DNA of 64,000 bases. It comes from Bacillota bacterium. Lineage in GTDB: Bacteria > Bacillota > DSM-12270 > Thermacetogeniales > Thermacetogeniaceae. A model generated the notes under the pieces. That model did not search any database and was not told where the DNA came from. It saw only the letters and a list, made by a program, of their open reading frames with translations. Of the stretch, positions 1-39,688 are shown piece after piece. The stretch spans positions 1-64,000 of the forward strand of contig JARYLU010000006.1 in NCBI GenBank assembly GCA_029907475.1, in the 5' to 3' direction. A program made the position numbers and the translations under genes. Position 1 is the stretch's first letter. Every line of letters begins with the position of its first letter.

Positions 1-129
1 CAACATTCACACAGTACCCACAGTACCACGACTTGCTACTTCTTGCCAGGGAAAGGGAGGTGAGGGGTCATAGAAGAATATGCCGCGTTACAAGTTCGCC
101 AGGCAATTGGGGGCTCGCTTGAGCCTTTA

Positions 130-384
130 GTGGCTTTTCGGGTTAAAGTAACAAACATAACGAGAAAACCAGGAGAGTCTTTAATATATTTGCCGACAGA
201 TGACGCACCTGACAGTGTCAGATTTTATAAATTAAACTGTGTATATGAAATACGGTTGATGCCTATACCTTTTTTGGGTTTATTGTCGATACTGGGGAGG
301 GATCAATTCACAGGTTATAGTGTTTGTTCCGGTCGAAATGACCACCAACGGAGCGAAGTGATGCTGTCATTTTTCCACAGTTAA
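130..384 (+). CDS. hypothetical protein, possibly the remnant of a longer gene
   Basis: I do not recognise this 84-residue frame, which opens with GTG. The same frame stays open upstream to about position 73 and reads as protein-like sequence, but no standard start codon is visible there, although a strong GGGAGGTGAGG purine-rich stretch lies just before it at 56-66. The N-terminal half (VAFRVKVTNITRK, then LIYLPTDDAP) looks like genuine beta-rich protein. The last 30 residues look like random read-through. It is probably the decayed end of a gene in an A+T-rich accessory region. Function is unknown and the start is uncertain. Confidence 0.25.
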   Translation: MAFRVKVTNITRKPGESLIYLPTDDAPDSVRFYKLNCVYEIRLMPIPFLGLLSILGRDQFTGYSVCSGRNDHQRSEVMLSFFHS

Positions 385-440
385 CAGCTTTGCTGTCATA
401 AAAAGGAGTCAAAAAAGATCTGCATTTAGCAAGCTAAATT

Positions 441-848
441 GTGAGGGATCTTAAGTTGATATATCTTATGTTTTTTATAGGAGTAGGCTCGGTAGTTCTT
501 GGACTTCCATATGCCTTGAAGATTTTTGGTCCCACTGAAGCTGTAGTGGCACTCTGGGGACGTACTTCTGTTTTTATCGGTATTTTACTAATAATTTCCT
601 CTTTTGCGTTACGGCCTGTTAAGACAAAAGCTATTAAGTTTTTACTGGCATTGGAGTTTTCCATTTTAGCACTTCTGCAGGTTTTTCCGATCTTTTTTTG
701 GATTGTGATGTACGGTCAAGGGATAACCGATTTGCCTTATCAACCTGGTGATTTTATTGCTCATTGGGGCTACTCTATCCCACATTTAATCATATTTGTA
801 AATGCCGTTTTGGTCATATATCTTCTTCTTCGTAATGCAAAAGATTAA
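441..848 (+). CDS. small integral membrane protein, unknown function
   Basis: This is a 135-residue, strongly hydrophobic protein with about four predicted membrane helices: roughly residues 8-27, 38-57, 66-88 and 110-130 in the long form. The helices are joined by short polar loops, and the end is short and charged (RNAKD). The frame opens with GTG at 441. A TTG at 456 sits about 8 bases after GAGGG and may be the real start. I recognise no family motif. It lies upstream of a small exported protein and a CPBP protease in A+T-rich DNA, so it may belong to an accessory membrane-protein cluster. Function is not assigned. Confidence 0.5.
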   Translation: MRDLKLIYLMFFIGVGSVVLGLPYALKIFGPTEAVVALWGRTSVFIGILLIISSFALRPVKTKAIKFLLALEFSILALLQVFPIFFWIVMYGQGITDLPYQPGDFIAHWGYSIPHLIIFVNAVLVIYLLLRNAKD

Positions 849-918
849 CGCAACTTGCTCGATATTTTAATGGAAGCCGTCAGGACGCTGATCTTATAAA
901 GAATGGCAGGTATCCTTA

Positions 919-1242
919 ATGAAAAGAAATACAACGACCACAGGTATATTGTTGTCTATCTTCTTTGTCTTAAGTGCTGCCTATTTCATAAATGCATCAA
1001 CAGACGATTTTTTTATGAACTCCTACAGTGGGACATTTAAAATTTTAAGAACTACTGCCAAGGACGTTGCAGCGCAGTTGCATTCAGTCATTTCGGTTCT
1101 CTTTCTACGCCCGTGCCTATTATCTTATGCCTATGAAAGGGGTCTCTTTCCAAAAACCCGACTAATTGAACAAGGGCAAAATCAGTTCTCTTCAACCCTG
1201 AGCACGATAGGTAACCTGTATCTCAGAAAGGGGCAGAGTTAG
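919..1242 (+). CDS. small exported or membrane-anchored hypothetical protein
   Basis: This 107-residue protein has a basic N-terminus (MKRNTTTT) and a hydrophobic stretch at about residues 9-25 ending in a plausible signal-peptidase region (SAAYFINAS). A second hydrophobic segment lies at about residues 55-70. The rest has no motif I recognise. It ends only 6 bases before the CPBP protease start at 1249, so the two are probably co-transcribed. The C-terminal half looks less protein-like, and the gene may be truncated or frameshifted. Confidence 0.4.
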   Translation: MKRNTTTTGILLSIFFVLSAAYFINASTDDFFMNSYSGTFKILRTTAKDVAAQLHSVISVLFLRPCLLSYAYERGLFPKTRLIEQGQNQFSSTLSTIGNLYLRKGQS

Positions 1243-1248
1243 TTCGCC

Positions 1249-2187
1249 ATGAAAGTAAATAAGGAATCACAACAAACGATATGTCAGAAAATTCACTCCA
1301 TCATTTCCCTGAAAGGGACAAAAACAGTAATAGGTCTTTTGTTATATTTTTCAGCGTTTATGTTTATAGATATTCCACTAGGTTATTTCCAAAATATGGT
1401 TTCATTTAGCAAATACTTTTTGGGTCAAATTTTCAACCATTTGCTATATCTAGCTGCAACTTTAGGTATAACGTGGATATTTATTAAATTTTGGGATAAA
1501 AGATCATTCGTAAATTTGGGCCTAACAATGACCAGAAAAACATGGTTTTTTCTATGTTTTGGAATTCTTGTTACAGGGATACTATTCTCACTAGTTTTTA
1601 TTATCCAACTTGGAGCCGGCTGGATTTCGGTAAAACATTTTGGTAATCTGAGCTACGATCAAATATTACCAGATAACTGCTATAACGCAACTTCGCAAGG
1701 TATATTAGGTTTCTTAGCAATGTTTGTTAGTTATTTTTTGGGATCAATGACTGAGGAAGTGATGATTAGAGGATATATCCTTCAAAGTATCGAAAGGGGC
1801 TTTGGGATCATACCGGCACTCGCCATATCATCGTTGTTATGGGGTTTCCTCCACATGAAAACTCATGTTGAATGGCTATTATGGGGTTTTAATCTTTTTC
1901 TTACCGGCCTCTTTTTTGGTTACAGTTATCTAATAACTCGCACACTTTGGGTTCCGGTCGGTCTTCATCTCTTCTATAACTTTTTCCAGGGTTCAGTATT
2001 TGGTTTTCCTGTAAGTGGTGTACATCATCCCCCTGAATTATTTCAGATAGTGTTACAGGGTCCAAATATCGTTACTGGAGGTGATATTGGTCCAGAGGGA
2101 GGAGTCTTGGTAACCATAATTACTCTACTTATAATCGTCTTGATGATAACTTTTTACCCTTTGAAAAGAAACCGTAGTAAAGCATGA
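1249..2187 (+). CDS. CPBP family intramembrane glutamic endopeptidase (Abi/Rce1-like)
   Basis: This 312-residue polytopic membrane protein has about eight hydrophobic segments. The CPBP (Rce1/Abi) core is visible. Motif 1 is SMTEEVMIRGYIL near residues 165-178, with the paired glutamates and the arginine. Motif 2 is FLHMKTH near 200-206, with its histidine. Motif 3 is VGLHLFYNFFQG near 236-248. These residues form the glutamate/histidine active site in this family. Family members cleave prenylated or membrane proteins and often serve in bacteriocin maturation or self-immunity. It follows a 107-residue exported protein by 6 bases. The substrate is unknown. Confidence 0.85.
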   Translation: MKVNKESQQTICQKIHSIISLKGTKTVIGLLLYFSAFMFIDIPLGYFQNMVSFSKYFLGQIFNHLLYLAATLGITWIFIKFWDKRSFVNLGLTMTRKTWFFLCFGILVTGILFSLVFIIQLGAGWISVKHFGNLSYDQILPDNCYNATSQGILGFLAMFVSYFLGSMTEEVMIRGYILQSIERGFGIIPALAISSLLWGFLHMKTHVEWLLWGFNLFLTGLFFGYSYLITRTLWVPVGLHLFYNFFQGSVFGFPVSGVHHPPELFQIVLQGPNIVTGGDIGPEGGVLVTIITLLIIVLMITFYPLKRNRSKA

Positions 2188-3351
2188 TTTAATTAGAAGA
2201 TGGCAAAAAGATAACAGATAATACCGTATCATTCACCGCATATTACACGGTCGCCGGGATTACCTTCGTGAATTATTTGACTAGACAGGTTTTATCAAAA
2301 AGAAAGACGCGCTGTCGCTCAACCGGTTAACGCAACGTTGGAGGTAAAATCTTTATGAAACAGGAACAAGGGTCAGGCTTTACTTTGTTCAAGCCTTATG
2401 CCTCTCTTTAAAAGCATGTCCGCAAAAAGTGCTCTCGCTGCCCTATCTTCATCGATCACTGCTTCATCTTCCTATAAATCCAGGTAATTATCGGCAGATT
2501 CTTCATGCCCCAACTTAGACTGTCAAGACAACGTGTCTATGGAATTGTTGAAACCATACTGTTTTCAGGGTGATTTTCGGAACGGTTCAGCATTCGACAA
2601 AATTTGTCAAGAATCGCTATTGACCGATTTTGTTTTTATGAAGTAGATTTTTAGAAATGGAGAAAAGTAATGGGCGCCGCCCCTCCACAGATAATTCCAT
2701 TGGTTTTCGCGGTTCGGCAGTAGGGTCGGGTAAATCTCAAAATAACTGCTGAAACTAGAATGAAAGTTCTGTTGGAAAAAATCAGGCCCCAGGCTCAAGA
2801 AAAAAAATCGTGGCGACGAGTATTCAATATCCTCTTATAACCGGGATCTCTATTCCTCTAAGTCAACACCGTACGGTAATTCGTCTGTAAGTACCAATCA
2901 GAGTGGCACAGCAAGCCGTACTGCCTATTTTACGTGCGTAGAAGATGTAGTTGAGGGGTTACAGATACCATGTGGCTTGGGACCAGCGATGGGAGGAAGG
3001 AAAAGTTAAAACCGCTGCCGTCACCAGATCATGATGCTTTAAACAAACATCCATCTTCCATTCCGGGTTTATTCCATGAGCCTAACTCCCAGTACTAATT
3101 AATACCGGATTATACCAGCCCCTTAAGGATTCATCGTAGAGGGCGGTTTGCCGTTGGTCCCAGCGTCGACCTTGCCACATAGCCGGTTATCTCCCTGGTA
3201 GTTAGTGAAACTCATATATGTGAAATGTATGTTCTTACATCCCATGATTAATGACTTTAGACTAATAATCCCAGCAGAAAAAAAGAGCTCTGGGCATCAG
3301 GTTAGTTTAAATTGTTTACTATGGCGAAATTGAGCATAACTCTTTATTATT
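2188..3351. other. long intergenic stretch with decayed coding fragments
   Basis: About 1.16 kb lie between the CPBP gene and the converging radical SAM gene with no convincing complete gene. The strand composition is irregular. One minus-strand fragment is listed separately at 2373-2520. A short plus-strand open stretch near 2205-2330 reads KITDNTVSFTAYYTVAG and then stops, and may be another remnant. No clean terminator, tRNA or repeat array was seen. The region is consistent with a decayed insertion zone inside the accessory island. Confidence 0.5.
2373..2520 (-). pseudogene. short gene fragment carrying an in-frame stop
   Basis: Read on the minus strand, this gives SKLGHEESADNYLDL, then TAG, then EDEAVIDEDRAARALFADML and onward to a TGA at 2373-2375. 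Sequence on both sides of the TAG is acidic, helical and protein-like, which suggests the 3' end of a gene killed by a nonsense change. No start or upstream domain remains. I cannot name the family. Chance coding-like sequence cannot be excluded. Confidence 0.3.
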
Positions 3352-4836
3352 TCATTTTAGAAAATGCGATGAAAGTGAGCTCTGTAACAGTCTACCATCA
3401 TTATGCTTATTCTTTTTTCTATTATTATGTTCAAGGTAGTGTGACAACGTATCTTTTACTTTACGGGGTAATTCTGAATAATTTACCGTATAGATGCGAT
3501 GATTGCATATGATATCCATGAAAATATCGCGTTCCCAACCAGATAGAGAGCATACCTGTGACCACCACAGTTCAGTTGAGCCATCTTTCTCATGTTGAAC
3601 GCGATTAAGTATATATGCTTCTGGCATCAGTAAAATTTTATGGTATTCATCCAGATTATGACCGAATGCTGCTTCGAAGTAGCCTCTACGAGTTCCAACA
3701 AGACCACGTGTTCTATTAAGGATACACCGTATAGCACGGAGATATTTCTTGTTCCAATATTTACCTACATTCCCGTTGGTACTTGTTAAACGATCCTTGG
3801 AATATAAGTCTATATAACGCATTGGGAACGAAAATATCTGAAGACCTAATTCTTCATTTAAATTTATATTTATTTTAAGTCGTTCATATAACTCATCAGG
3901 GTGGTCACGGTAATTGTAGAGAACATAATTTGAAAGGTTATTAATGCCATACTTGGCTATAAGGCGGACCTTATTTTCATACATCTCCTTATAACTAAGA
4001 TCATCGAATGCGAGGCGGAGCGGACTAATAGCTATTTCGCTAAGAAGAGCTACCTTATCCTCTGAGAGCAACCGCAGATCCAGTCCCTGATTGAAATCCA
4101 CATGACGCTTTACGATTGTAGTTCTGCCCGACTTATTTATATAGGAGTAGGTCGCGCCCTGTTCGAACCCAAGAGATTTAATATCCCCAATTATTTCTGA
4201 AAAGCGTTCAGAGGCGAGTACATTATTATCTAGAAGAATAAGGTCCCGCTTCTCACCATATAACTCCTGTATCAATTGCACCTGCCTCTTAAGTGGAAGG
4301 TAATGCACAAACTCCGGTTCAATTCGATACACAGCACAGAATGGGCATCGACGTGGACAACCTCGTGTTGCGTACCCAATATAGCAGTCCTGTAGTTTGT
4401 AATAAAAGTTGACACCAATATTATTAAGAATACTGTAATCTGGTGTTAGGGCGTCAATATTTATCTTGTCGCCAGCGTCAAGTATGCCGGGCTTATCCAA
4501 CAACCCAGGGATAACCGTAGCACCAGTCGCTGACTTGAGGTCGTCATAAAGCAACGTAGCCATCACGCCGCCAACATATATATCAGCAGGGCTGGGTACG
4601 CTCGCCTGGTAATAATATATTGTCTGTAAAGTTTCCTTCCAATAGTATGTAAAAAGAGAGCTAATGTAGATTCGATCCCAACTCTGGACCTGCATCTCGG
4701 GAATACAGCCCTTCACAAAAACAACACGGTCTCCCTTAAGCTTGTGGTATGTTGATATTTTCATTAGCCCGAGTGGTGGGTATTTACTCTTATATTTAGG
4801 CTCCACGAGCAGTATATTTCTCACCAGTTGTCTCAA
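3352..4836 (-). CDS. radical SAM protein with B12-binding-like N-terminal domain, last gene of the candidate defence operon
   Basis: This 494-residue protein has the radical SAM cluster motif C160-x3-C164-x2-C167 (RGCPRRCPFC), which should bind a 4Fe-4S cluster and S-adenosylmethionine. Residues 1-115 look like the Rossmann-type N-terminal domain of B12-dependent radical SAM enzymes (NILLVEP...PPLGLMKIS, later YVGGVMATLL). I see no DxHxxG cobalamin motif, so B12 binding is doubtful. The start is TTG at 4836, whose TTGA overlaps the TGA stop of the 151-residue gene, which points to translational coupling. The C-terminal 200 residues (with MPEAYILNR) match nothing I know. The substrate is unknown; a nucleic-acid or peptide modification would fit the operon. 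A+T content is like its operon and unlike the downstream housekeeping genes. Confidence 0.85.
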   Translation of the reverse strand: MRQLVRNILLVEPKYKSKYPPLGLMKISTYHKLKGDRVVFVKGCIPEMQVQSWDRIYISSLFTYYWKETLQTIYYYQASVPSPADIYVGGVMATLLYDDLKSATGATVIPGLLDKPGILDAGDKINIDALTPDYSILNNIGVNFYYKLQDCYIGYATRGCPRRCPFCAVYRIEPEFVHYLPLKRQVQLIQELYGEKRDLILLDNNVLASERFSEIIGDIKSLGFEQGATYSYINKSGRTTIVKRHVDFNQGLDLRLLSEDKVALLSEIAISPLRLAFDDLSYKEMYENKVRLIAKYGINNLSNYVLYNYRDHPDELYERLKININLNEELGLQIFSFPMRYIDLYSKDRLTSTNGNVGKYWNKKYLRAIRCILNRTRGLVGTRRGYFEAAFGHNLDEYHKILLMPEAYILNRVQHEKDGSTELWWSQVCSLSGWERDIFMDIICNHRIYTVNYSELPRKVKDTLSHYLEHNNRKKNKHNDGRLLQSSLSSHFLK

Positions 4837-5288
4837 CTGCCGACCTCCGACTGTTCAAGTATATAGAACAAGAAATCTTTTGGTAAAGTCTTCGAGCAAG
4901 TGGGGTCAAGTTGTGGCTCCTTCTCCTTAGAACCCGGGAGAAGGTAATTATCCAGAAAATCGTCAATGAGGATCTCCATACCAGAATTCGCATACTCCTC
5001 GATAACTCCAAGCACTTTCTTATCTTCCATGATTATCGAGAAATCATAATTATTATCTTCAAGAAGCATAGCATAATAACAACCCCATTCGGATGGAGTG
5101 ATTGTTCTTGACCAGAAACGGTCATCGCCCCTGGCGATCTTTTTGCGCTTCTTCCTGCGATACCCAATGCAGGCGCACACAAAAAACAGTTCGTGGAAAT
5201 CGCCCACCACAAAACTATTCTTCATGTTATTGTATAGCTCCTTATATCTAGCATCAGTTTTCACCCGAATCTGGCCATCCATATTCAT
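4833..5288 (-). CDS. small protein resembling a Dnd-system-associated family
   Basis: This 151-residue soluble protein has the pattern YKELYNNM, then FHELFFVCACIGYRRKKR, then IIMEDKKVLGVIEEYANSG, then MEILIDDFLD. From memory this layout (a hydrophobic block followed by G(Y/F)xR(K/R), then an EEYANxGxEIL block) resembles the small Dnd-system-associated protein family found beside phosphorothioation genes. That assignment is tentative. ATGA at 5285-5288 joins its start to the stop of the DndD-like gene, and its own stop overlaps the radical SAM start. Its role is probably as a small subunit of the complex formed by its neighbours (inference). Confidence 0.6.
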   Translation of the reverse strand: MNMDGQIRVKTDARYKELYNNMKNSFVVGDFHELFFVCACIGYRRKKRKKIARGDDRFWSRTITPSEWGCYYAMLLEDNNYDFSIIMEDKKVLGVIEEYANSGMEILIDDFLDNYLLPGSKEKEPQLDPTCSKTLPKDFLFYILEQSEVGS

Positions 5289-7327
5289 AGGTAATCCTCC
5301 TCGCTTCGGAGAATAGCATAGACAGTGTTAATGTCTTTTTCTTCAACCATAGTATTGCCGTCATCAACACCACGAAGGAAGAAAAACTTGCCCCAATTCC
5401 CGGTTGCCTTGAGCAATTGAGCTTCCTGTCGGCGGAACTCTGTATCAGTAGCAAGCATAATCCACTGCGAAGAGAGTGCCGGTAGCATTTTTATCAGGTT
5501 CTTTCTATGCTCGTACGAAAGGCGGCCAAAAGGCGTATCCATGAACAAGGGGATCTCAATCCAATTATTTCGAGAGGCTGCCATTGCCAAGGCCGCAATA
5601 AAGGCGATTGACATAATCTGTCGCTGGCCAGCCGAAATGTTTGCCAAAAACGGACGTCCCCATCGGTCGAGAACCTCTAATGAATAGTCATCGTTAACGA
5701 TAATTGTACGAAGGTTCATTCGTCCTTCGTCATCCAATAGTTCATTAAAGATTTTGGTTGCTGACTCTCCGATCACATCCTTAATCTCACGCGTGAATTC
5801 TAAATGAACAGTATTAAGCGCATCTAGCGTTTCACGGGCTAGAAGGGAACGCCGGGACAATTCATCATTTCGATTGGCTTTTAGTTTCGCTTCCTTTAAA
5901 AGTGCTAACAATCGTTCATGTTCACTCTCCAACTGCTTCAACTGCGTTTCCGAATTCTGAATAGTGGCCTCGATCTTAGTAACACTTGCTTGGAGATAGC
6001 TGCGGTGCGCGTCGAGTTCGGTAGCGTCCTGCCGTTCTGAACCACCTATCTCGCTACTAAGTCTGTTTAGTTCATGACGAATATTATCCATCTCTTGAAT
6101 TAGATTGCTATGTTCAATTATACGTTTTTGTATCAAGTCTTCATCATCACTATAGTGATGGCATATCTCACCCAGGTACCGCCAAAGATTTAGAGCAGCG
6201 TCTTGTACGTCGACATCACTTGTTCTGTCATACCACTCAAGGATATTTTTATGGGCATCTGTTCCTTCGCAAATTTCATTGCCACAGATGCACCGATGCT
6301 CATCCAGTATACGTTGAATCAGGTCCCGGCGAATCTCGGACGGAATATCACCTTTTCGTTTTTGCCTCTCAATGTACTCGAATACATTCGTTACCGTAGG
6401 AGCAATAATTAAGGCAGCACCCTTACACACCATATTGCGCATGCTACGCATAGCCTCGGAAGCCTGCTGCTCCAAAATTTGAAGCTGTTGCTCGTAAGCC
6501 TTTCTTTTTTCAAGTAAATGCCTTATCTCCTTAAATTCCTCGAGTCTTTTATCCGTAATCTCGATTTCCTTTAATGCTTTCCTCCGCTCTTCTCCTAATT
6601 GCTCCAGTTTTTTCTCGAGCTCACCCTGCGCCTCCTCATTCTCTCTAAGCCGCTGCACGAGTTGATAGAGCTGTTCTGAAGACGCCGATTTAGCAAGGTC
6701 ATCCTCAAGAAGCTTTACCACGCGCCTAACGGCTCTAATTGCACTCTCGAGCGCATCGATGTTGAGTAGGTTGCGAATACCCCGGCCTACCTCCCGGCGC
6801 TGTTCAACTCCAGCCCTTGTTAGACGCTCAATTTTTTCACCGTCGAAAAGGAAATATTCCTTCACTCTCCTATCCAGGACCCTGTCAATGACATCATTAA
6901 TATCTTTAGGATCAATCACTCTTGTATTACCGTCCACTCCAGTAATCCTCAACCTGATATCGGTAACTTCCTCAATTACATTACTTCCTTCACTCATGCC
7001 CATGATTGCTCGGCGTAGATTATAGATCTCCCCTTTATGGTTGAAAACCAATTCTACTGAAGCTTCCACAGGTTTACCCGGATTAGCCCGAATGGCTGAC
7101 ATATTAACCAGTTGTAACTCCTTATCAGGTACATCGCCATCTTGTGACAACCTGCGTTCTCCGTAAAGGCAGAATACAATCGCTCGGAAAAGACCTGTCT
7201 TGCCGCGCCCGTTCTCGCCAAATACCACAGTTACATTTCGCTTGGGTTCGCCGGAGGGTATAAATTCCAGTTCCTGTTTCCCATAAAACTGTCGGAAGTT
7301 CTCCAAAGTCATCTTCTGCAAAATCAT
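5285..7327 (-). CDS. DndD-like SMC/Rad50-type ATPase
   Basis: This 680-residue ATPase has Walker A GENGRGKT at 37-44, long coiled-coil arms at about 205-300 and 395-490, an ABC signature ISAGQRQ at 564-570 and Walker B/D-loop IPLFMDTPFGRL at 592-603. The stretch YFLFDGEKIERL at 158-169 is typical of DndD and its relatives. Between the arms, C346, C348 and C353 (RCICGNEIC) form a possible zinc-hook-like apex. DndD proteins are DNA-dependent ATPases in phosphorothioation systems, and related SMC ATPases serve many defence systems. The start overlaps the upstream stop by ATGA, and its own TGA overlaps the next ATG. No DndC or DndE accompanies it. It probably drives DNA sensing or processing with the adjacent helicase (inference). 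Confidence 0.85.
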   Translation of the reverse strand: MILQKMTLENFRQFYGKQELEFIPSGEPKRNVTVVFGENGRGKTGLFRAIVFCLYGERRLSQDGDVPDKELQLVNMSAIRANPGKPVEASVELVFNHKGEIYNLRRAIMGMSEGSNVIEEVTDIRLRITGVDGNTRVIDPKDINDVIDRVLDRRVKEYFLFDGEKIERLTRAGVEQRREVGRGIRNLLNIDALESAIRAVRRVVKLLEDDLAKSASSEQLYQLVQRLRENEEAQGELEKKLEQLGEERRKALKEIEITDKRLEEFKEIRHLLEKRKAYEQQLQILEQQASEAMRSMRNMVCKGAALIIAPTVTNVFEYIERQKRKGDIPSEIRRDLIQRILDEHRCICGNEICEGTDAHKNILEWYDRTSDVDVQDAALNLWRYLGEICHHYSDDEDLIQKRIIEHSNLIQEMDNIRHELNRLSSEIGGSERQDATELDAHRSYLQASVTKIEATIQNSETQLKQLESEHERLLALLKEAKLKANRNDELSRRSLLARETLDALNTVHLEFTREIKDVIGESATKIFNELLDDEGRMNLRTIIVNDDYSLEVLDRWGRPFLANISAGQRQIMSIAFIAALAMAASRNNWIEIPLFMDTPFGRLSYEHRKNLIKMLPALSSQWIMLATDTEFRRQEAQLLKATGNWGKFFFLRGVDDGNTMVEEKDINTVYAILRSEEDYL

Positions 7328-7524
7328 TCACGTTCACTCTCCTGTGAACGCGCCAGTTTTCGTATAAGTACCAGTAGCTGATCAGCGACCGTCGCCTCTG
7401 GTAATGTTTCTGACAACTGCACTGCACGAATAGCCAGTTCCCGCACTTCCGTGGAATATGTGCTAAGCTTCTCGACTATCAAGGCATTAATATCTTCAGA
7501 TACATTATTATCCACGTTACTCAT
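7324..7524 (-). CDS. 66-residue hypothetical protein of the candidate defence operon
   Basis: The real start appears to be ATG at 7524, in an 8-base overlap (ATGAGTAA) with the helicase stop at 7517-7519. A longer reading from 7581 would run back into helicase coding sequence without good reason. The product is acidic and mostly helical: MSNVDNNVSEDINALIVEKL, then a helix with RELAIRAVQLSETLPEATVADQLLVLIRKL. It has no membrane segment, no cysteine and no motif I recognise. Its last codons overlap the DndD-like start (ATGA). Fixed overlaps on both sides argue for a genuine small subunit, perhaps an adaptor between the helicase and the ATPase (inference). Confidence 0.6.
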   Translation of the reverse strand: MSNVDNNVSEDINALIVEKLSTYSTEVRELAIRAVQLSETLPEATVADQLLVLIRKLARSQESERE

Positions 7525-9637
7525 CCTCGTACCAATCCCATCCTTTAAGAGAATGATAGACTTGCCAAGGTTTTTCTTCAAGCAAATTAAGCATGCCTAG
7601 CTTATCAAGGATTTCAGATACAGTTGAGCGCGCATAAAACTCATTACTAGCGAGGGATGCATATTCTACAAATCGGGGCATTTCGCGTTGAAGCACACTA
7701 AGATCAGCTCTTAGTCTCATATCAATTCGGTCCAGGGGTGGAACCACAAGAAAGTCGTAAATCATCGCCCGGTCTTTATTCGGAGCTAGGCGCAGTATTC
7801 TCCCTCTACGTTGTACAAACTCACGTGGATTCGTACTACTAGCCATTATAAACGCCATTCTGGTTGAAGGTACATCAACGCCTTCATCCAGGCACCGGAT
7901 CGCTATCAAAGCCTGAATATCCCCGCTAGCAAATTGTTGAAGAAGCTTTTCCCGTTCAGGGAGACTTACGCTATGGACAAACTCATGGCACCGCAAGCCT
8001 GTACCTGAAACACGCTGTAATACTTCCTTGTGGTGGCCGGGCGAACAATATATCAGAATTCCTCTGGGTTCCTCGTTTGCTTGAATGTGTTCGGCTATTA
8101 TTTTACGCAGTAAACTAAGTAAAGCGGGGAGCTTTGCTTGCGCAGCATAGATAATACGAGAACGCTCAAGAAGCAGCGCCAGTAATTTTTGTTTAATATC
8201 TTCATCAACCTTTCCTGCCAGTGCAATGGTTAGAATTCGATGCGTCAATTCCTCGTATTGATCAATCTCGTTGTCAGTGAGGCTTACAAGCTGGGGATAA
8301 TACTCATAAGGTGTCAAGAAATTGCCAATGGCCTGCTCTAATGGGTATTCAAAGCAGACCGGCCCGAAATAGCGGAAAATAGCCTCCGTACCTTCTTCAT
8401 CAAACCAGCGTCTTGGGGTAGCTGACAGACCCAAGCGCATCCCGGCGCGTTCTAACAATGCGGAACGCAGATTGGGTGCACCAAGCGCATGTACCTCATC
8501 CCCGATAAGTAGAGTGTCTGCCAAAGGAAGATTTCTAAGTGCAGCAGCAAATTTATCTAGGGATGCTGTTTTATGAACGGCCAGCACACAGATGTTCGAA
8601 CGTACACCAAGTTTAAAATCCTGCACAGCAGCCCGTACGGCAATTTCCCAGCGGCTATGCTGGCTACTGCATAGAATAGGGTTAAATCCAAATTCCCGAC
8701 AACTTCTTCCCCATTGTTCAAGTAAGTGTAAGTACGGAACTAATACAATCATGGCAAGACGCCCATGGTTTTCAAAAACTTGAGTTGCTGCAGCTAAAGA
8801 AGTATATGTCTTTCCAGTGCCAGTTGCCATTTCAAACACACCACGGTGTCCAGCTTCATTCCATTTTTTTATGGCTAACTTCTGATAATCATAAAGTTCT
8901 ATGTTACAATGAGGTAAAACCCCGGATCCAGTCACGGCAACCGAAGGAAATCTATACGGACGCTCTGAAGTCGAGCGCAACTTAATGAATTCTTCACGAA
9001 TCGCCTCAGGGATGCAGCATACATGAAATTTCCGGTTTCTATCATTCCATAAAGCTTCAAGGCGCGAGCGATGCATGTCGACATAGGCATACTGCCCAGG
9101 CTCCCAGGACTTAAAAACAGAAAAGGCTTCACCATTTAGCGACCCTACGACAGAATCATTGAGCGACCCGTGAATAACCACCTGATCACCATTAACATCC
9201 GTAAATACAGCAACTTTGTCGTGATAATTACCTGCAGTCTCCTTGTCGCGTGGGATCGCAAAACGAAATTCGAATACATCGTCAGCCACCATCCATGCCA
9301 GTGCATTGCATGTATCCTTATCGAGTGACTTAGCCAAATTTTCAATGTTCCGTCGCAAAATGGCACGCAGTACGTTGTTCGTTTTTGCGGCTTCGCCAAG
9401 CTTTAGGGCTTCCCAGTCTGAAGCCTCAAGAATTGGTGAAACCACCACACGCGCTTTACCGCCAGCCTCAACAAAAGATACTACACCTTGGGCTGCAAGA
9501 CGTAGCCACCCTGAAGTAAAAAAACCTACCCCTCGCAAGTAGTCTCGTGAATGGGCAAGCAACGGCACCTGGAGGTCGCGGATTAAATCATATTGTTCGC
9601 TATCATATACAGGGAGAAGATTGAGGTCCCTTAACAA
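7517..9637 (-). CDS. SF2 DEAD/DEAH-type helicase with N-terminal phospholipase-D-like domain
   Basis: This 706-residue protein has two parts. Residues 30-200 look like a phospholipase-D-like fold: VGFFTSGWLRLAAQG at 37-51, then YHDK (H139, K141) and IHGSLNDS at 155-162, i.e. one HxK...N half-site. Residues 245-650 are a superfamily 2 helicase: Walker A ATGTGKT 271-277, DEVH 380-383, SATP 405-408 and motif VI QRRGRILR 609-616. Such fusions occur in restriction and defence loci. A nuclease role for the first domain would need two half-sites, probably through dimerisation (inference). The start is TTG at 9637, directly abutting the TAA of the upstream gene, so translation is probably coupled. 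Confidence 0.85.
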   Translation of the reverse strand: MLRDLNLLPVYDSEQYDLIRDLQVPLLAHSRDYLRGVGFFTSGWLRLAAQGVVSFVEAGGKARVVVSPILEASDWEALKLGEAAKTNNVLRAILRRNIENLAKSLDKDTCNALAWMVADDVFEFRFAIPRDKETAGNYHDKVAVFTDVNGDQVVIHGSLNDSVVGSLNGEAFSVFKSWEPGQYAYVDMHRSRLEALWNDRNRKFHVCCIPEAIREEFIKLRSTSERPYRFPSVAVTGSGVLPHCNIELYDYQKLAIKKWNEAGHRGVFEMATGTGKTYTSLAAATQVFENHGRLAMIVLVPYLHLLEQWGRSCREFGFNPILCSSQHSRWEIAVRAAVQDFKLGVRSNICVLAVHKTASLDKFAAALRNLPLADTLLIGDEVHALGAPNLRSALLERAGMRLGLSATPRRWFDEEGTEAIFRYFGPVCFEYPLEQAIGNFLTPYEYYPQLVSLTDNEIDQYEELTHRILTIALAGKVDEDIKQKLLALLLERSRIIYAAQAKLPALLSLLRKIIAEHIQANEEPRGILIYCSPGHHKEVLQRVSGTGLRCHEFVHSVSLPEREKLLQQFASGDIQALIAIRCLDEGVDVPSTRMAFIMASSTNPREFVQRRGRILRLAPNKDRAMIYDFLVVPPLDRIDMRLRADLSVLQREMPRFVEYASLASNEFYARSTVSEILDKLGMLNLLEEKPWQVYHSLKGWDWYEDE

Positions 9638-12600
9638 TTAACACAACTCCGTTAATACCACTGTATTTCCTTTAATAGTAACCAGGCTTTCATCGCACAG
9701 CATCATCGGGGTTAAGCTTTTTTGCAGGATACCAGCGTCCCGCATTTCTTTCTCAAAGACCGAAAGATTTGCAGCTCCTCCATAATATTCTTTAAGTATT
9801 ATATATAGTAAATCGCTAAGGCTTTTAATGCCTTTCGAATTAGACGCCGGCACAAATGCATTTCTTTGCGTACCTATAATAAGAAAGCGTCCATTCCGGC
9901 ATAACAGTTCTCCGAGCAGAGTAGTAGTCCACGGAGCACATACAGGCAATTCCGGCAGTTTTGCAAACTCATATAGATGTGTAATTAAACCATAAGGTTT
10001 TCCTGCCCGTTCCCGTTCACTACAATGCGCAGCCGCAACTTGTTCAAGTATTTGCTGCTTCTCATCTGTCCAGTTTAACGTGGCTAAGTGAACTACTGCA
10101 CCCTGGCTGTAGCAGATTACATCATCTCGACACCGGACATTATATACGGTGTTAGGCCGGTATCCGAGTTCGTCTACAAAGTGATGAAATAACTCGTCAT
10201 AGCTACACGGAGCGTCCTTCTTTCGAATATAATCCGCGATTTCTGAAGACACCCCAATAGTACGCTTCCCTTTCTTCCCTATCCCAAGTATACGAATACG
10301 TGGGAACTTCGACAAATCGTATTGCTCACTGCAAAACAACTGCAAAACTGAATATAACATGAATGGGTTCGAGATTCCGAGGAGTTTACATGTAACCTTC
10401 TTATCGTCAAAAATTTTCGTGACCGCCACATGGTTTGTACTCTTCAAAAGCGAATCAATATAGTCTAATATTGGCCGTAGCCTATCACGGTCGATATTAA
10501 GTTCATCTACATGGATAAATTGTGCCCTTTCAACCTGTATGACGTTAGGTATGTTATAAATGTATATCCACTGTAATTGCTCACTTACATAGAGCGTACC
10601 TACTAAATAATCTCTAATCTTATCCAGGCTAACAACGCCTTGTTGGTTACGAACGAACTGCTCAAGTACGAACGGGAGAGGCAATCGCTGCAACTCATTT
10701 TCCTTAAGCATTACGTAAGGGTATTCGGGGTAAGCCAACATCGCATTGCCAGTTTCACGCAGACAACTGTATAGAGCGCTTTCAGTCGGAACCCCAGACT
10801 CAACCAATCTTTCCTTAAAGCTCTTAAAGACACCGCTGACAGAAATGAAAGGAACCCCTGTATTGAGCCGCTCTAATATATAATTCTCTATTTCATGAAT
10901 CAGTCCATAAGGAATCACTACATGAGAACGATGAATAAACGTACCCCTGTCCCAGAGCAGTAAGACAGGTGAATTGCTCATACATGCGTGGATATAACGT
11001 TCAGACAATGATTCGTCGTCAGGGCGCATTTCACGTATTTTCTGGTAGACCTCAGTAAAGTGCATCGCGTGAGTGCAATTTTGCATAATGGCTTCTATCA
11101 TTTCGTTTCGCTGGCCATAGCGATATACCCAGGCTATCTGATTGTATAAATAATTCCCGTCTGTTTTGATTATGTTGCTCCTTTCGGCTATGTGAAGCAC
11201 GTACCCGCATGAAAAACTAGCCACCTCCACTGTATCGACCCGGCATTCGCACTTGCAAGACTCTAACAGGATTCGCCCAGCTTCTTGTACCGCCAGAACG
11301 CCTTGAGACTCATCAATCGCTCTAGTCAGCATTTGTTCCACTCTTAAACAATTCACGCACGGGCACGATTCCATCATTATACTCAATCGTGGTTCCCTGA
11401 TAACTTGGAAAATCTTGCTCGCGCCAACAAGCACAGCTACGCTTTCACCTGGTGGCACTGATGGCCATAACCACAGGTTGGCCAATGATTCGGCTAGTTC
11501 GCTAGCCAAGCATACCCCGCCGGAGCGTGTTAAGATATGAGAAATCACATCCCACAGAGGTTGTAATTTGTTTTTATTACTTATATGCTGCAGCTTCTTT
11601 ATGCATTTCTTCTCAATCTGGCGAACGCGTTCTCGGGTAATGCCCTCAATATTACCAAGCTCCTCAAGTGTCCACTGCCGGCCATCCAAAAATCCCAGGC
11701 GTCCTTTGAGAATTGTTTTCTGTCTTGGCGTCTTTGCTCCGAGCTCAACATAATAGTTGACTAAACTCTCGAAACTAAAATAAACTTCTTCTGGCATCAT
11801 TAGCCGTACGTCTTGAGCATATTTTTTCAGTAACCACAAACAATGTATAAAACAAAAAGATTGAGCTGAAATTCCGTACATATTGACAATATTCCGCTCA
11901 CTATGCCCTACAGTATCACGCCAGGTTATTATCCTCATACTTTGCATCAATGTGACTATGGTTTTGGGAACCCTAAAGGCATCCAAGCGTATATTTGCTA
12001 TGCCTTTAACATCCGAATCACAAATTATTGGGAAGTCATCCAGTTGTCTTTCAGTAAAATAAACCCCATGAGAATGGTGGAATACTTTACTCAAACCCAT
12101 CAAAAGTGCGGAAAAGGCTTCATTTGAGATCCCCGTTTCAATTATATAGCCAACAGTCAACGAACTGATATCCGCAAGCGAATCCTCTGGATATAACGCA
12201 ACAGCCCGTAACTTCCTAAGGTCCTGTGCCGAAAGGCCTAACTCTGATAAACGGATTCGCTCGGCACATTCATAAAACTCCACACTATTCATATTCGCTC
12301 CATCATATAACTCGCGCAACGCTTTACGAAGGATACTACTCTCTGTCGGTTCTTCCAAGTTTATCGGGTGACAAGTATATGGGGTTTCTTTTTTGTTAGA
12401 ACGTATGATTATAGTAGAATAATTAGAATAATTAGTACATTCATATTTATTCTTTCTAGTAGCTTCACCTACGCTAGTTGGATAAGAATACATTTTTCGG
12501 ACAAGCTTTTGAAATTTTAGCAATTCCTCAACAGTTTTACATCCAGCGCCTGGCAATGATATTAATTCTTGTTCACTTAAACTAAGTAGATGGCCGACAG

Positions 12601-13045
12601 TATCTATTTTTTGCCTTCTCATTACATTAGCCGTTCTGTTACTCAGTTGATTGAGCAATTCTCGTGGTATTCGGATACTCGAACAATTTAAGCCTCTTTC
12701 TGCTGTTTCTGAAGTTCTGGAATCCTTCTCCAGGCCAGTCTGTTTTGCAAAACCTTTATCTCTTTTTTGTTTCCTGGAAAACTTGTATACTTGTTGTTTT
12801 TGTCTAAGTTTATCTCTGACCTTAAGTATTTCCTTGACCGTCCCGGGTTTCACACCTTTGATCATGTACAATTGATCCTCAGAGATTGATAACATCCCAT
12901 CTAAATCGCGGATACCACACGCAATTATGACATTAAAGGCTTGGATACTAATACTTCTGAGCGTACGCTCAAATATAGCATCTATAGTAAGGTCATCCAA
13001 TACCTTTTGTTGTTGGTATAAATAATCTTTTCGCATAATCATCAC
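9638..13045 (-). CDS. large protein with alpha-CTD-like HhH units and a sigma-70 region-4-like HTH, first gene of the candidate defence operon
   Basis: This 1135-residue protein contains no obvious enzyme motif. Residues 30-80 (RSISIQAFNVIIACGIRDLD...KGVKPGTVKEIL) and 128-182 match the helix-hairpin-helix pattern of the RNA polymerase alpha C-terminal domain. Weaker copies may lie at 265-320 and 352-410. Residues 439-486 (TPRQKTILKGRLGF...WTLEELGNIEGITRERVRQIEKK) are an excellent sigma-70 region 4 helix-turn-helix. The C-terminal 600 residues read as repeated winged-helix-like segments, with a cysteine-rich patch (SCPCVNC, later SCKCECR) at about 555-605. It is probably a DNA-binding scaffold, sensor or autoregulator. 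The first start codon is GTG at 13045; ATG at 13042 and 13036 are alternatives. Confidence 0.8.
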   Translation of the reverse strand: MMIMRKDYLYQQQKVLDDLTIDAIFERTLRSISIQAFNVIIACGIRDLDGMLSISEDQLYMIKGVKPGTVKEILKVRDKLRQKQQVYKFSRKQKRDKGFAKQTGLEKDSRTSETAERGLNCSSIRIPRELLNQLSNRTANVMRRQKIDTVGHLLSLSEQELISLPGAGCKTVEELLKFQKLVRKMYSYPTSVGEATRKNKYECTNYSNYSTIIIRSNKKETPYTCHPINLEEPTESSILRKALRELYDGANMNSVEFYECAERIRLSELGLSAQDLRKLRAVALYPEDSLADISSLTVGYIIETGISNEAFSALLMGLSKVFHHSHGVYFTERQLDDFPIICDSDVKGIANIRLDAFRVPKTIVTLMQSMRIITWRDTVGHSERNIVNMYGISAQSFCFIHCLWLLKKYAQDVRLMMPEEVYFSFESLVNYYVELGAKTPRQKTILKGRLGFLDGRQWTLEELGNIEGITRERVRQIEKKCIKKLQHISNKNKLQPLWDVISHILTRSGGVCLASELAESLANLWLWPSVPPGESVAVLVGASKIFQVIREPRLSIMMESCPCVNCLRVEQMLTRAIDESQGVLAVQEAGRILLESCKCECRVDTVEVASFSCGYVLHIAERSNIIKTDGNYLYNQIAWVYRYGQRNEMIEAIMQNCTHAMHFTEVYQKIREMRPDDESLSERYIHACMSNSPVLLLWDRGTFIHRSHVVIPYGLIHEIENYILERLNTGVPFISVSGVFKSFKERLVESGVPTESALYSCLRETGNAMLAYPEYPYVMLKENELQRLPLPFVLEQFVRNQQGVVSLDKIRDYLVGTLYVSEQLQWIYIYNIPNVIQVERAQFIHVDELNIDRDRLRPILDYIDSLLKSTNHVAVTKIFDDKKVTCKLLGISNPFMLYSVLQLFCSEQYDLSKFPRIRILGIGKKGKRTIGVSSEIADYIRKKDAPCSYDELFHHFVDELGYRPNTVYNVRCRDDVICYSQGAVVHLATLNWTDEKQQILEQVAAAHCSERERAGKPYGLITHLYEFAKLPELPVCAPWTTTLLGELLCRNGRFLIIGTQRNAFVPASNSKGIKSLSDLLYIILKEYYGGAANLSVFEKEMRDAGILQKSLTPMMLCDESLVTIKGNTVVLTELC

Positions 13046-13258
13046 AGCTTTTAATTTTATTGCCCCTCACTACAGTATGGTCATTGGCTGGCTCATCTCT
13101 GCTCTCAACCGCGTACGCCAAGAACAAGATGGCGAGCGATGATGACCACTACCTATTGGCTATTGAACCAACTTTTGCTATTCGACATTATTACCGAAAA
13201 CTCCTCCTAAATGTATTGAACAATAGTTCCAACAACTTTCAGGGTCCTTTGATACATA
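13046..13258. other. A+T-rich upstream region of the six-gene operon
   Basis: This 213-base stretch between the first gene of the candidate defence operon and the tautomerase relic holds no credible gene. It should contain the minus-strand promoter of the operon, but I could not pick a -35/-10 pair with confidence. A GAGGGG purine stretch lies about 18 bases before the start cluster at 13045-13036, rather far for an ideal ribosome site. Composition changes from A+T-rich to G+C-rich at its right end near 13260. Confidence 0.4.
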
Positions 13259-13453
13259 TTAGACATCTATCCTGTGGGTGAGTTCAACCTCGCTGGCCGG
13301 TTTGCCGCCACGCACCCCGAAGTTCTCCAGGGGAGGCTCGTGTAGCACGATCATGATATCTCTCCCATTGATGCCGGGGTCCCGTGCCAGGTTGTTCACG
13401 ATGACCTGATAAAGCTTCCTCTTGGCCTCCAGGCAAACTGCTGCTGAGGATTT
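13259..13453 (-). pseudogene. 3' remnant of a tautomerase family gene
   Basis: The minus-strand reading gives LEAKRKLYQVIVNNL, then DPGINGRDIMIVLHEPPLEN, then FGVRGGKPASEVEL and a proper stop at 13259-13261. This closely follows the C-terminal half of tautomerase-superfamily proteins (4-oxalocrotonate tautomerase-like, 130-residue class). The frame is closed by a TGA immediately upstream at about 13454, so the catalytic N-terminal half, including the Pro-1 region, is missing. It is G+C-rich like the housekeeping DNA to its right and sits at the edge of the A+T-rich island. It is best read as a native gene broken at or near the island junction. Confidence 0.7.
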
Positions 13454-37613: not shown

Positions 37614-38576
37614 TCAGACGAAACCCTCTTCTTTAATTTCAACTTGAAAACGGATTTTATCTTGTGTCACCTGCGGCTTTACCTTCGTCGCAGTGCGGGA
37701 AACCACCAGCGAGGCCCAGTCCCCCCGCGCCGGGGTCGGGACATTGATAACTCCCCCCTTCACCTTTCCCTGCACCCAGAGCACTCCCCGCGTCTCGCGG
37801 GGGCCCAGGAAATCCAGGAGCTTGTCGTTCCGGAAAACAACCGCTCCCTTGAAGGCAAGCTCTCTGTTCTCTTCTGCCCCCCTTCCCTCGGCAACCGCGC
37901 CCCCTTCACCGTCGGAGCCCCCGCCGGAGGCTGCCTCCCGCATCGGGTAAACCTCAACAGAAGAGGCTACCGGCTCTCCTCCCAGGCTGTTCAAGGCGGT
38001 CAGAAAATCCCCCAGCACCACCGGGAAGCGCGTGGAGGTATAGACAGGGTGCCGCTCCATGATAAATCTGATCCCGGTTCCCGGGACACGCTCCAGCGCA
38101 GGGCGCCCCCTCACCAAAACGTCCTGCGCCCGCCCTTTCGCCACGAGAACCCAGACAGAGCGCCGCACCTCCCAGTGCCGGCTGAAAAAATCGAGGGCAG
38201 GGCCCACTCCTTCCCGCGCCAGGTCCTCCCCCAAAACGATGGCTTGAAGCTGCTTAAAACGCACTCTCCGGGGAGCTGCTTCGGAAAACCTTGCCAGGGC
38301 CTCGGAAACATCCCGCGCCCGTACGCTCGTTACGACAACCGGTGGGGCCTGTCCGGCCGCCCCTCCCTGCCTCATAGCAAGGGCGCGGGGAACCACAACT
38401 TGAAAAGAAACGAGCACCCCCCGGGGGCCGGCCCGGTCCACCCCAACCACCGAAACGAAGGCCATCTGGTCGATTTCGAGCCTGCTCCAGCAGCCGCTAC
38501 TCATACTGGCCAAAAAGACCGCCAGGAAAAGAACGCAGGCCGGCTTGAGCCCGGGCTGCTTAAATATTTTCTTCAT
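37614..38576 (-). CDS. gerKC: N-terminal part of Ger(x)C germinant-receptor lipoprotein, truncated by in-frame TGA
   Basis: These 320 residues start with a lipoprotein signal (lipobox SMSSGCW, Cys near 29) and continue as LEIDQMAFVSVVGVDRAG, typical of GerAC/GerKC. Ger(x)C proteins are usually near 400 residues; this part plus the following 96 totals 416 if the TGA at 37614-37616 is read through. GerC subunits sit on the outer face of the spore inner membrane beside the A and B subunits. The gene overlaps gerKB by 17 bases. It is either a nonsense-mutated pseudogene, recoded, or an assembly error. Confidence 0.8.
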   Translation of the reverse strand: MKKIFKQPGLKPACVLFLAVFLASMSSGCWSRLEIDQMAFVSVVGVDRAGPRGVLVSFQVVVPRALAMRQGGAAGQAPPVVVTSVRARDVSEALARFSEAAPRRVRFKQLQAIVLGEDLAREGVGPALDFFSRHWEVRRSVWVLVAKGRAQDVLVRGRPALERVPGTGIRFIMERHPVYTSTRFPVVLGDFLTALNSLGGEPVASSVEVYPMREAASGGGSDGEGGAVAEGRGAEENRELAFKGAVVFRNDKLLDFLGPRETRGVLWVQGKVKGGVINVPTPARGDWASLVVSRTATKVKPQVTQDKIRFQVEIKEEGFV

Positions 38577-39687
38577 TTTTTCGCCCTCCCTGATTGGTAA
38601 TACCCTTCTTCCGGATCAAGGCAAGGAAAAAAAGAAGGAGGGGGATCCCGCCCTGGACCGTGATCCCAAGAGGGCCCCAGAAACGGGCGAGGAATTCCCG
38701 GAGGTGAATGATATCCGTGAACTCCAGGATCGACAAGGCAACGAGAATCACCCCGCCGGGGAGCACGAGCGGCCGGTAGTCGCTGAGGTTAAAGGACTGG
38801 GCAAAAGCCAGCGCAGCCGCGTAGTAAATCACCATCACCTTCAGGCCTACGGCAGAGACCCAAACCCCCACAACCAGAGATTCCATCCGCTCCAGAAACC
38901 CGCCCAGGCGCACCGTTTTTGCGAGATCAAAAGTCGGAAAAACGAGCCGGGCGGTTTCTTCGGCGCCAAATAAGGCGGTCACCCCGAGCACAGTCAAAGA
39001 TATCATCACGACCAGGAGAAATATGACCTGGAGGTTGACCCGGCGCGCATCCTCCGGCCGGCGGAGGTAGGGGAGAAACATCGCAAAAACAATCCCTTCC
39101 CCGAAAAAAGCAAAGAGGCTCCCTGCTCCCCGCAAGATGTGAGAGAAGGAGTGGACAAGCACCGGCTTGAGCTGGAAAAAATCCATCTCCGGCAGGGCCA
39201 GAGACAGCATAAACAAACTTACCAGAAGGGAAAAGGGAAAGACGATCTCGCTCACCCGCGCGAAAACCTCCAGCCCCAGGTAAACCCCGTATACAGCCAT
39301 GGCGACCAGTAAAGCGTTGAAAACAACAAGCGGGGTCTCCGGCATCACGACACTCACCAGGAGCTCGCCGAATTCCCGGATGATGATGCCGTTTAGATAA
39401 AAGAAAAAAAGGCCGAACAGGATACCCAGCGCCCTTCCGCCCCAGGGGCCCAGCAGTTCTATCGCATACTCCACGAGGTTCTTCTCAGGGAAGCGCAGGC
39501 CCAGGGAAACCACGAGGGCGCCCAGGACCAGCCCGAAAACCGCTGCAATCAGCACCGAGGCCCAGGCATCGTGCCCCGCCTCGCGCGCCATCAAGGCGGG
39601 AAGAAATAAAATTCCGGTTGCCAGAATCTCATTGGCGATTAAAAAGGTTGCCTGGCGGGAGGAAATCCTTCCCTTTTCAATACTCAT
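38560..39687 (-). CDS. gerKB: spore germination permease GerKB/GerAB family
   Basis: This protein of about 375 residues has ten hydrophobic segments and is of the APC-like GerAB family, which binds the germinant in spores. It starts ISSRQATFLIANEILATGILFLPAL and has the typical ISLTVLGVTALFGAEETARLVFP and FTDIIHLREFL. ATG at 39687 begins one base after the gerKA stop; the frame also opens farther upstream at 39714. It is the second gene in the receptor operon order A-B-C. Confidence 0.93.
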   Translation of the reverse strand: MSIEKGRISSRQATFLIANEILATGILFLPALMAREAGHDAWASVLIAAVFGLVLGALVVSLGLRFPEKNLVEYAIELLGPWGGRALGILFGLFFFYLNGIIIREFGELLVSVVMPETPLVVFNALLVAMAVYGVYLGLEVFARVSEIVFPFSLLVSLFMLSLALPEMDFFQLKPVLVHSFSHILRGAGSLFAFFGEGIVFAMFLPYLRRPEDARRVNLQVIFLLVVMISLTVLGVTALFGAEETARLVFPTFDLAKTVRLGGFLERMESLVVGVWVSAVGLKVMVIYYAAALAFAQSFNLSDYRPLVLPGGVILVALSILEFTDIIHLREFLARFWGPLGITVQGGIPLLLFFLALIRKKGITNQGGRKNEENI

Positions 39688-39688
39688 C

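Follow-up and report, generated by a model that had tools for sequence, protein, structure and literature searches.

A probable PbeABCD-type restriction operon carrying a radical SAM enzyme as candidate DNA-marking component in a Bacillota genome

PbeABCD proteins are known from bacteria and archaea as a phosphorothioation (PT) defence, in which antiviral action is tied to a DNA mark (PMC6459918, PMC10853773); with the marking genes DndCDEA, which are required, they protected their host about 10^4-fold from a haloarchaeal virus (PMC6459918). Here we describe a six-gene operon in a 64,000-nucleotide stretch of a Bacillota genome (contig JARYLU010000006.1, positions 1 to 64,000, forward strand; the window), in which PbeABCD genes are preceded by the gene for a 1135-residue protein (p1135) and followed by that for a radical SAM enzyme. 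The operon is very probably a restriction or defence system, a variant of Pbe. There is about an even chance that it represents an undescribed six-gene form of a PbeABCD-type restriction system, with the radical SAM enzyme replacing the PT or methylase module as self-marker.

Judged by sequence, four of the six genes are PbeABCD, of the type with a CxC ABC ATPase and a DndE cognate, because they match PADLOC and NCBIfam profiles, follow the published order and sizes, and keep their motifs. In the order given by Xiong et al. 2019, pbeA (PLD, ResIII and helicase C) is followed by pbeB (66 aa), pbeC (AAA) and pbeD (152 aa) (PMC6459918), and according to Rakesh et al. 2024, PbeC is the ATPase with the CxC hook, while in CxC systems the DndE cognate is PbeD (PMC10853773). 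An original prediction, made from the letters of the window, had seen a possibly undescribed system, with no named counterpart known for its gene order. The PADLOC matches (Table 1) and the published arrangement (PMC6459918) now give four of the genes a name, and what may be new is p1135 and the radical SAM enzyme, which were in no named system found. PbeA also matches NCBIfam TIGR04095 with 473 bits (below its cut-off of 600), and its HxK, GSxN, Walker A/B and QRRGR motifs are kept across nine radical SAM-Pbe loci, as are the Walker A, signature, Walker B and CxC motifs of PbeC. The ATPase has an AAA_23/DndD domain match in Pfam and NCBIfam, and its PADLOC match to PbeC is far stronger than that to DndD (4e-65). 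At all nine loci a small PbeB-like open reading frame (ORF) of 53-86 aa lies between PbeA and PbeC, and the position of PbeD in the order is kept; position and size fit PbeD as a two-ribbon-helix-helix DndE cognate, with a TIGR04062 match that is below the cut-off.

The earlier domain calls (a DndD-like AAA_23 ATPase, a PLD-SF2 helicase of TIGR04095 type, sigma region 4 with alphaCTD, a weak TIGR04062 match and Radical_SAM) were upheld, and so was the view that this is not the classic phosphorothioation set: no DndC, DndB or SspC was found across the genome assembly, which is 99.65% complete. The canonical DndABCDE system is ruled out, with TIGR03185 at 172 bits against a cut-off of 246 for the ATPase and no DndC. 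The further remark that DndE is absent was misleading, because PbeD is the DndE cognate (PMC10853773).

The minus strand has the six ORFs where they had been placed, and they form one operon. They had been described as fused by overlaps, which holds for four junctions, with 8 bp shared by PbeA and the 66-aa ORF and 4 bp at each of the remaining three (66-aa ORF/ATPase, ATPase/151-aa ORF and 151-aa ORF/radical SAM); the end of p1135 and the start of PbeA abut (9638/9637).

Table 1. The six genes of the operon (window positions 3352-13045)
Gene	Position	Strand	Length	Features
p1135	9638..13045	-	1135 aa	First operon gene; Pfam Sigma70_r4 5e-12, RNA_pol_A_CTD 6e-10; AlphaFold model and PDB fold matches
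PbeA	7517..9637	-	706 aa	HKD (PLD) endonuclease fused to SF2 helicase; PADLOC PbeA 5e-218
PbeB	7324..7524	-	66 aa	Matches published PbeB in length and position (PMC6459918)
PbeC	5285..7327	-	680 aa	CxC-clade ABC ATPase, CICG zinc hook; PADLOC PbeC 1e-174
PbeD	4833..5288	-	151 aa	Small DndE-cognate protein; TIGR04062 dnd_assoc_4 6e-5, under cut-off
Radical SAM enzyme	3352..4836	-	494 aa	Last operon gene; Pfam Radical_SAM 9e-6; N-terminal cobalamin-binding-like Rossmann domain

The arrangement is not confined to this genome. When genomes, one for each species, were searched with an alignment of PbeA and the neighbourhoods of the matches annotated, the exact order p1135-PbeA-PbeB-PbeC-PbeD-radical SAM was found in seven other genomes from several phyla: L051 (a metagenome-assembled genome), L052 (Desulfofustis), L060 (Desulfocapsa), L053, the same as L043 (Bacillota), L093 (Ca. 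Mcinerneyibacterium), L033 (genome G321) and L063 (Elusimicrobiales, with a more distant radical SAM protein). All six genes are also present in L055 (Bacillota), where the radical SAM gene is inverted. The comparison of related neighbourhoods that had been suggested with the original prediction thus finds that the homologues co-occur, and with the six-gene order recurring across phyla, it is not reasonable to ascribe the adjacency to chance. The phylum of Desulfofustis, represented by 395 genomes, holds three examples of the close PbeA type (>900 bits), all of them together with the radical SAM gene; in the window's phylum, seven of 398 genomes have the radical SAM family (E <1e-40), and in four of these, the window included, it adjoins PbeABCD.

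A single origin of the link between Pbe and radical SAM is rejected by an approximately unbiased (AU) test: the Pbe-linked radical SAM proteins are polyphyletic among their relatives (p 4e-70), with at least five changes forced by the starred branches of the tree. This polyphyly indicates that radical SAM genes were recruited to Pbe loci several times, a repeated joining that we read from the sequences. At L054 (Aneurinibacillus terranovensis, 1142-6363), p1135-PbeABCD is directly preceded by genes for a GHKL ATPase, for a protein of 436 aa and for a radical SAM protein of a different kind; the protein of 436 aa weakly resembles the window's radical SAM protein.

The other added gene, p1135, directly precedes PbeA at each of the eight other strict radical SAM-Pbe loci, and in one clade of PbeA it recurs as a fifth gene that has no name. 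Pfam recognizes in its product an alphaCTD-like helix-hairpin-helix (HhH) domain and sigma-70 region 4; the AlphaFold model contains additional HhH-like helices, places region 4 at 423-493 (Z 9-10), and has in its C-terminal half about eight tandem winged helices, like the arrays of SelB and UFL1. Since no enzymatic domain was found among the Pfam and AlphaFold/PDB fold matches, p1135 is, on the modelled structure, probably a non-enzymatic DNA-binding scaffold. A role as bona fide sigma factor is not supported, region 4 alone having been seen: Pfam reports no region 2, which the fold search leaves possible, while region 4 is recovered by both. It is the most divergent subunit, with 36-37% identity to the nearest relatives versus 63-68% for PbeA, PbeC and the radical SAM enzyme, and its distances track those of PbeA and PbeC (r 0.93-0.94; about 0.8 for the radical SAM enzyme).

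Other gene combinations were seen around p1135. Just upstream of it, L033 (2725-4932) and L043 (15011-17374) encode a further PLD-SF2 helicase, which is similar to a type IV modification-directed enzyme and is accompanied by a gene of about 105 aa. On a Lactiplantibacillus plantarum plasmid (L127), a p1135-like gene lies upstream of a short PbeA (457 aa), followed by PbeC and PbeD; this PbeA aligns only from residue 246 of the window's protein, and its HKD nuclease part seems to be missing.

The radical SAM motif C160xxxC164xxC167 is invariant in the alignment of relatives, which holds no other invariant cysteine. In the AlphaFold model an N-terminal Rossmann domain precedes a radical SAM barrel closest to those of AprD4, MgmA, MiaB, TsrM and OxsB; because overall root-mean-square deviations (rmsd) are large, these fold matches are relations at the level of domains. 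Residues 2-114 match cobalamin-binding proteins with Z of 10-11 and an rmsd of about 3 over 105 residues. The N-domain is cobalamin-binding-like by its model and may bind cobalamin; the Pfam B12-binding family scores above its cut-off solely in one relative, L041, and the profile of the family gave no match to PDB sequences. Sulfur insertion of the methylthiotransferase (MTTase; MiaB/RimO) type is not supported, since there is no second Cys triad beyond the radical SAM motif and, with none conserved in the N-domain, no MTTase second 4Fe-4S cluster. The length of 494 aa, compared with 677-685 in L033 and L043, does not reflect a truncated gene, the relatives in L051, L052 and L060 having 460-480 aa.

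The same family occurs in other settings, often on mobile elements, all of which handle DNA, and this favours DNA as the substrate of the enzyme. Plasmids of alphaproteobacteria carry an operon in which a DGQHR gene (DndB-like, PF14072; DpdB-like) is followed by a radical SAM gene, whose product is 40-41% identical to ours, and a GHKL gene, often beside helicase, ParB-like or PIN-like genes. This operon seems to be a system of its own, for defence or DNA modification, that has no name; the instances are L123, L124, L125 and L128, on plasmids of Novosphingobium, Mesorhizobium, Roseomonas and Bradyrhizobium, and a PIN-like/GHKL pair is among the neighbours. On contigs of Bacillota and viruses the radical SAM gene follows NurA-HerA-GHKL (L129, L130, L131, L144 and L155), with HerA and NurA assigned by similarity to proteins of Marinitoga camini virus 1; viral contigs also have ParB-helicase-ParB, then radical SAM, then GHKL. 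At L043, PbeABCD, radical SAM, GHKL and a DndB-like gene stand together at one locus. Some viral members have no recognised partner. Family members were seen in Marinitoga camini virus 1 itself (L172), in viral contigs within L140-L164 and in the phage record MT836743, and such phage-borne copies are possibly agents of phage DNA modification or of a carried defence. Subscription papers and supplements being beyond reach, our literature search found no paper linking radical SAM enzymes to Pbe, DGQHR or HerA defence loci.

Taken with the distribution of PT genes, these observations suggest how the operon might work. Other Pbe loci of the window's phylum are mostly beside SspABCD-like PT modules, and others are beside DndCD, and no DndC was found in any genome of the radical SAM group. 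A PT module is present in 2 of 11 genomes with a Pbe-adjacent radical SAM gene versus 24 of 30 without one (Fisher p 5e-4), a contrast that is suggestive, since only five independent pairs exist on the PbeA tree and it is not significant given descent. We propose that PbeC with PbeD would scan DNA, and that PbeA would translocate on DNA that lacks the self mark and cut it or block its replication, while PbeB would restrain or license PbeA. The p1135 protein, a fast-diverging array of DNA-binding domains, may be the scaffold for target recognition or assembly, and the radical SAM enzyme, standing in for the absent PT or methylase module, would mark host DNA as self. The action of that enzyme on DNA, the service of its product as self mark and the part given to p1135 are what we infer here. 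That the enzyme is the DNA-marking component is a proposition a little short of an even chance. The wider idea, that the cobalamin-domain family found at PbeABCD, DndB-like/GHKL and HerA-NurA loci and in some phages installs an undescribed base or backbone modification as a self mark replacing phosphorothioation or methylation, is tentative, a possibility more than an expectation.

Several observations weigh against assigning the self mark to the radical SAM enzyme, whose action on DNA is itself putative. Within the radical SAM group, the genomes of L041 and L055, and no others, retain an SspC-like gene, which lies away from the Pbe loci retrieved, and the exclusion between PT and radical SAM genes is confounded by descent. 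Three p1135-Pbe loci (L042, L056 and L057) have neither radical SAM nor PT genes, and two of them, L056 and L057, adjoin ordinary restriction-modification genes. The radical SAM gene comes after PbeD, whereas Ssp genes precede PbeA. Several DNA methylases are encoded elsewhere in the window's genome and could act in trans.

This last point leads to the main rival, so ranked because methylase genes occur in most of these genomes: an ordinary PbeABCD system, with a self mark made in trans by a methylase or another enzyme encoded elsewhere, and with p1135 and the radical SAM enzyme as accessory regulators. It would suit the frequent pairing of CxC systems with cytosine methylases and the fact that 320 of 553 PbeAC pairs (about 58%) have no nearby dndCD (PMC6459918, PMC10853773), as well as the restriction-modification genes beside L056 and L057. 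A motif scan of the operons and flanks of the strict loci, however, gave no methylase save a match within the GHKL gene of L055. The single-contig genome G321, which has the full operon, is without a C5 methylase, and its N4/N6 (PF01555) match is stop-riddled, though weak N6_Mtase matches occur. The repeated recruitment of radical SAM genes is also left unexplained, and we consider a mark made in trans rather unlikely.

The viperin family includes defence enzymes of the radical SAM type that produce nucleotide analogues, and on this precedent the enzyme might instead be an effector producing an antiviral small molecule, or the maturase of a subunit such as PbeB, with a substrate other than DNA. 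A small, rapidly evolving PbeB at every locus would suit the latter role. Yet the fold is of the cobalamin-domain/MTTase type and not the compact viperin one, relatives adjoin DndB-like, ParB, HerA-NurA and GHKL genes instead of nucleotide kinases or peptide substrates, and the same family is found without PbeB, which together make an effector or maturase improbable.

Phages often deplete S-adenosylmethionine, and a radical SAM protein that senses this molecule, Fe-S or oxygen could belong to a suicide system with no self mark, in which PbeB or p1135 keeps the nuclease off until a phage interferes. A proposal in which PbeB negatively regulates a suicide mode has been published (PMC10853773). 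In H. jeotgali, however, Pbe activity needs PT, and loss of PT brings no apparent growth defect (PMC6459918); we hold a markless system to be quite improbable. That the operon is a degraded or inactive island remnant is barely credible: foreign composition and a truncated, presumably tautomerase-like reading frame at the 5' edge would fit, but the six intact overlapping ORFs keep all their motifs and have homologues of similar length in other phyla.

The composition is indeed A+T-rich and foreign-looking, as had been noted, with a GC content of 43.3% in the operon versus 56.4% to the right (13046-64000) and 39.7% in 1-3351, the latter being all the left context, since the window begins at base 1 of contig 6. 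At the 5' border of the operon, on the minus strand at 13258-13450, lies a truncated host-like open stretch ending ...GVRGGKPASEVELTHRIDV and a stop, which resembles the remnant of a tautomerase-family gene. The sister genome G198, searched as an empty site, has no PbeA; its genes on that side of IDH are arranged differently, which leaves no clean boundary. Farther away, 38001-40000 stands out from the rest of the window by its strong AT skew (+0.27 to +0.35).

The operon provides a concrete candidate marking enzyme for solitary Pbe systems, with independent recruitments as evidence. Some such systems have been suggested to mediate entirely different modifications (PMC10853773), and for PbeAC pairs with no nearby dndCD, the operon suggests a possibly new way of marking their own DNA.

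Among known systems, MZA has in MzaA the sigma region 4 part that is also seen in p1135, and its MzaB is similar to the GHKL protein encoded ahead of p1135 at L054; the MzaA match, however, covers ~60 residues at 51.6 bits against a cut-off of 800, and there is no other Mza match at the window locus. Class B radical SAM enzymes and MTTases (AprD4, MgmA, TsrM, OxsB and MiaB) have a Rossmann cobalamin-binding-like N-domain and barrel like those of our enzyme, which differs in having no sequence match in the PDB and no extra conserved Cys triad. The plasmid DGQHR operons have a homologous radical SAM enzyme, and their GHKL ATPase is a relative of the one in L033 and L043; they have no PbeABCD, and are unnamed in PADLOC save for the DpdB-like match. 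SspABCD-linked loci of the same phylum (L034, L035, L037, L040 and L048) have the PbeA-B-C-D core in common with the window, but their PbeA is about 33-34% identical to ours, Ssp PT genes precede it (in L034, SspC 1e-125 and SspA 2e-29), and there is neither an upstream p1135 nor a radical SAM gene. Compared with DndCDEA-PbeABCD and the CxC systems (PMC6459918, PMC10853773), the operon lacks PT genes in locus and genome and adds p1135 upstream and the radical SAM gene downstream, neither of which is a Pbe gene in the main texts of these papers, while it shares with them the PbeA HKD-SF2 helicase, a 66-aa PbeB, a CxC PbeC and a PbeD of ~150 aa, in the same gene order and in one transcription unit.

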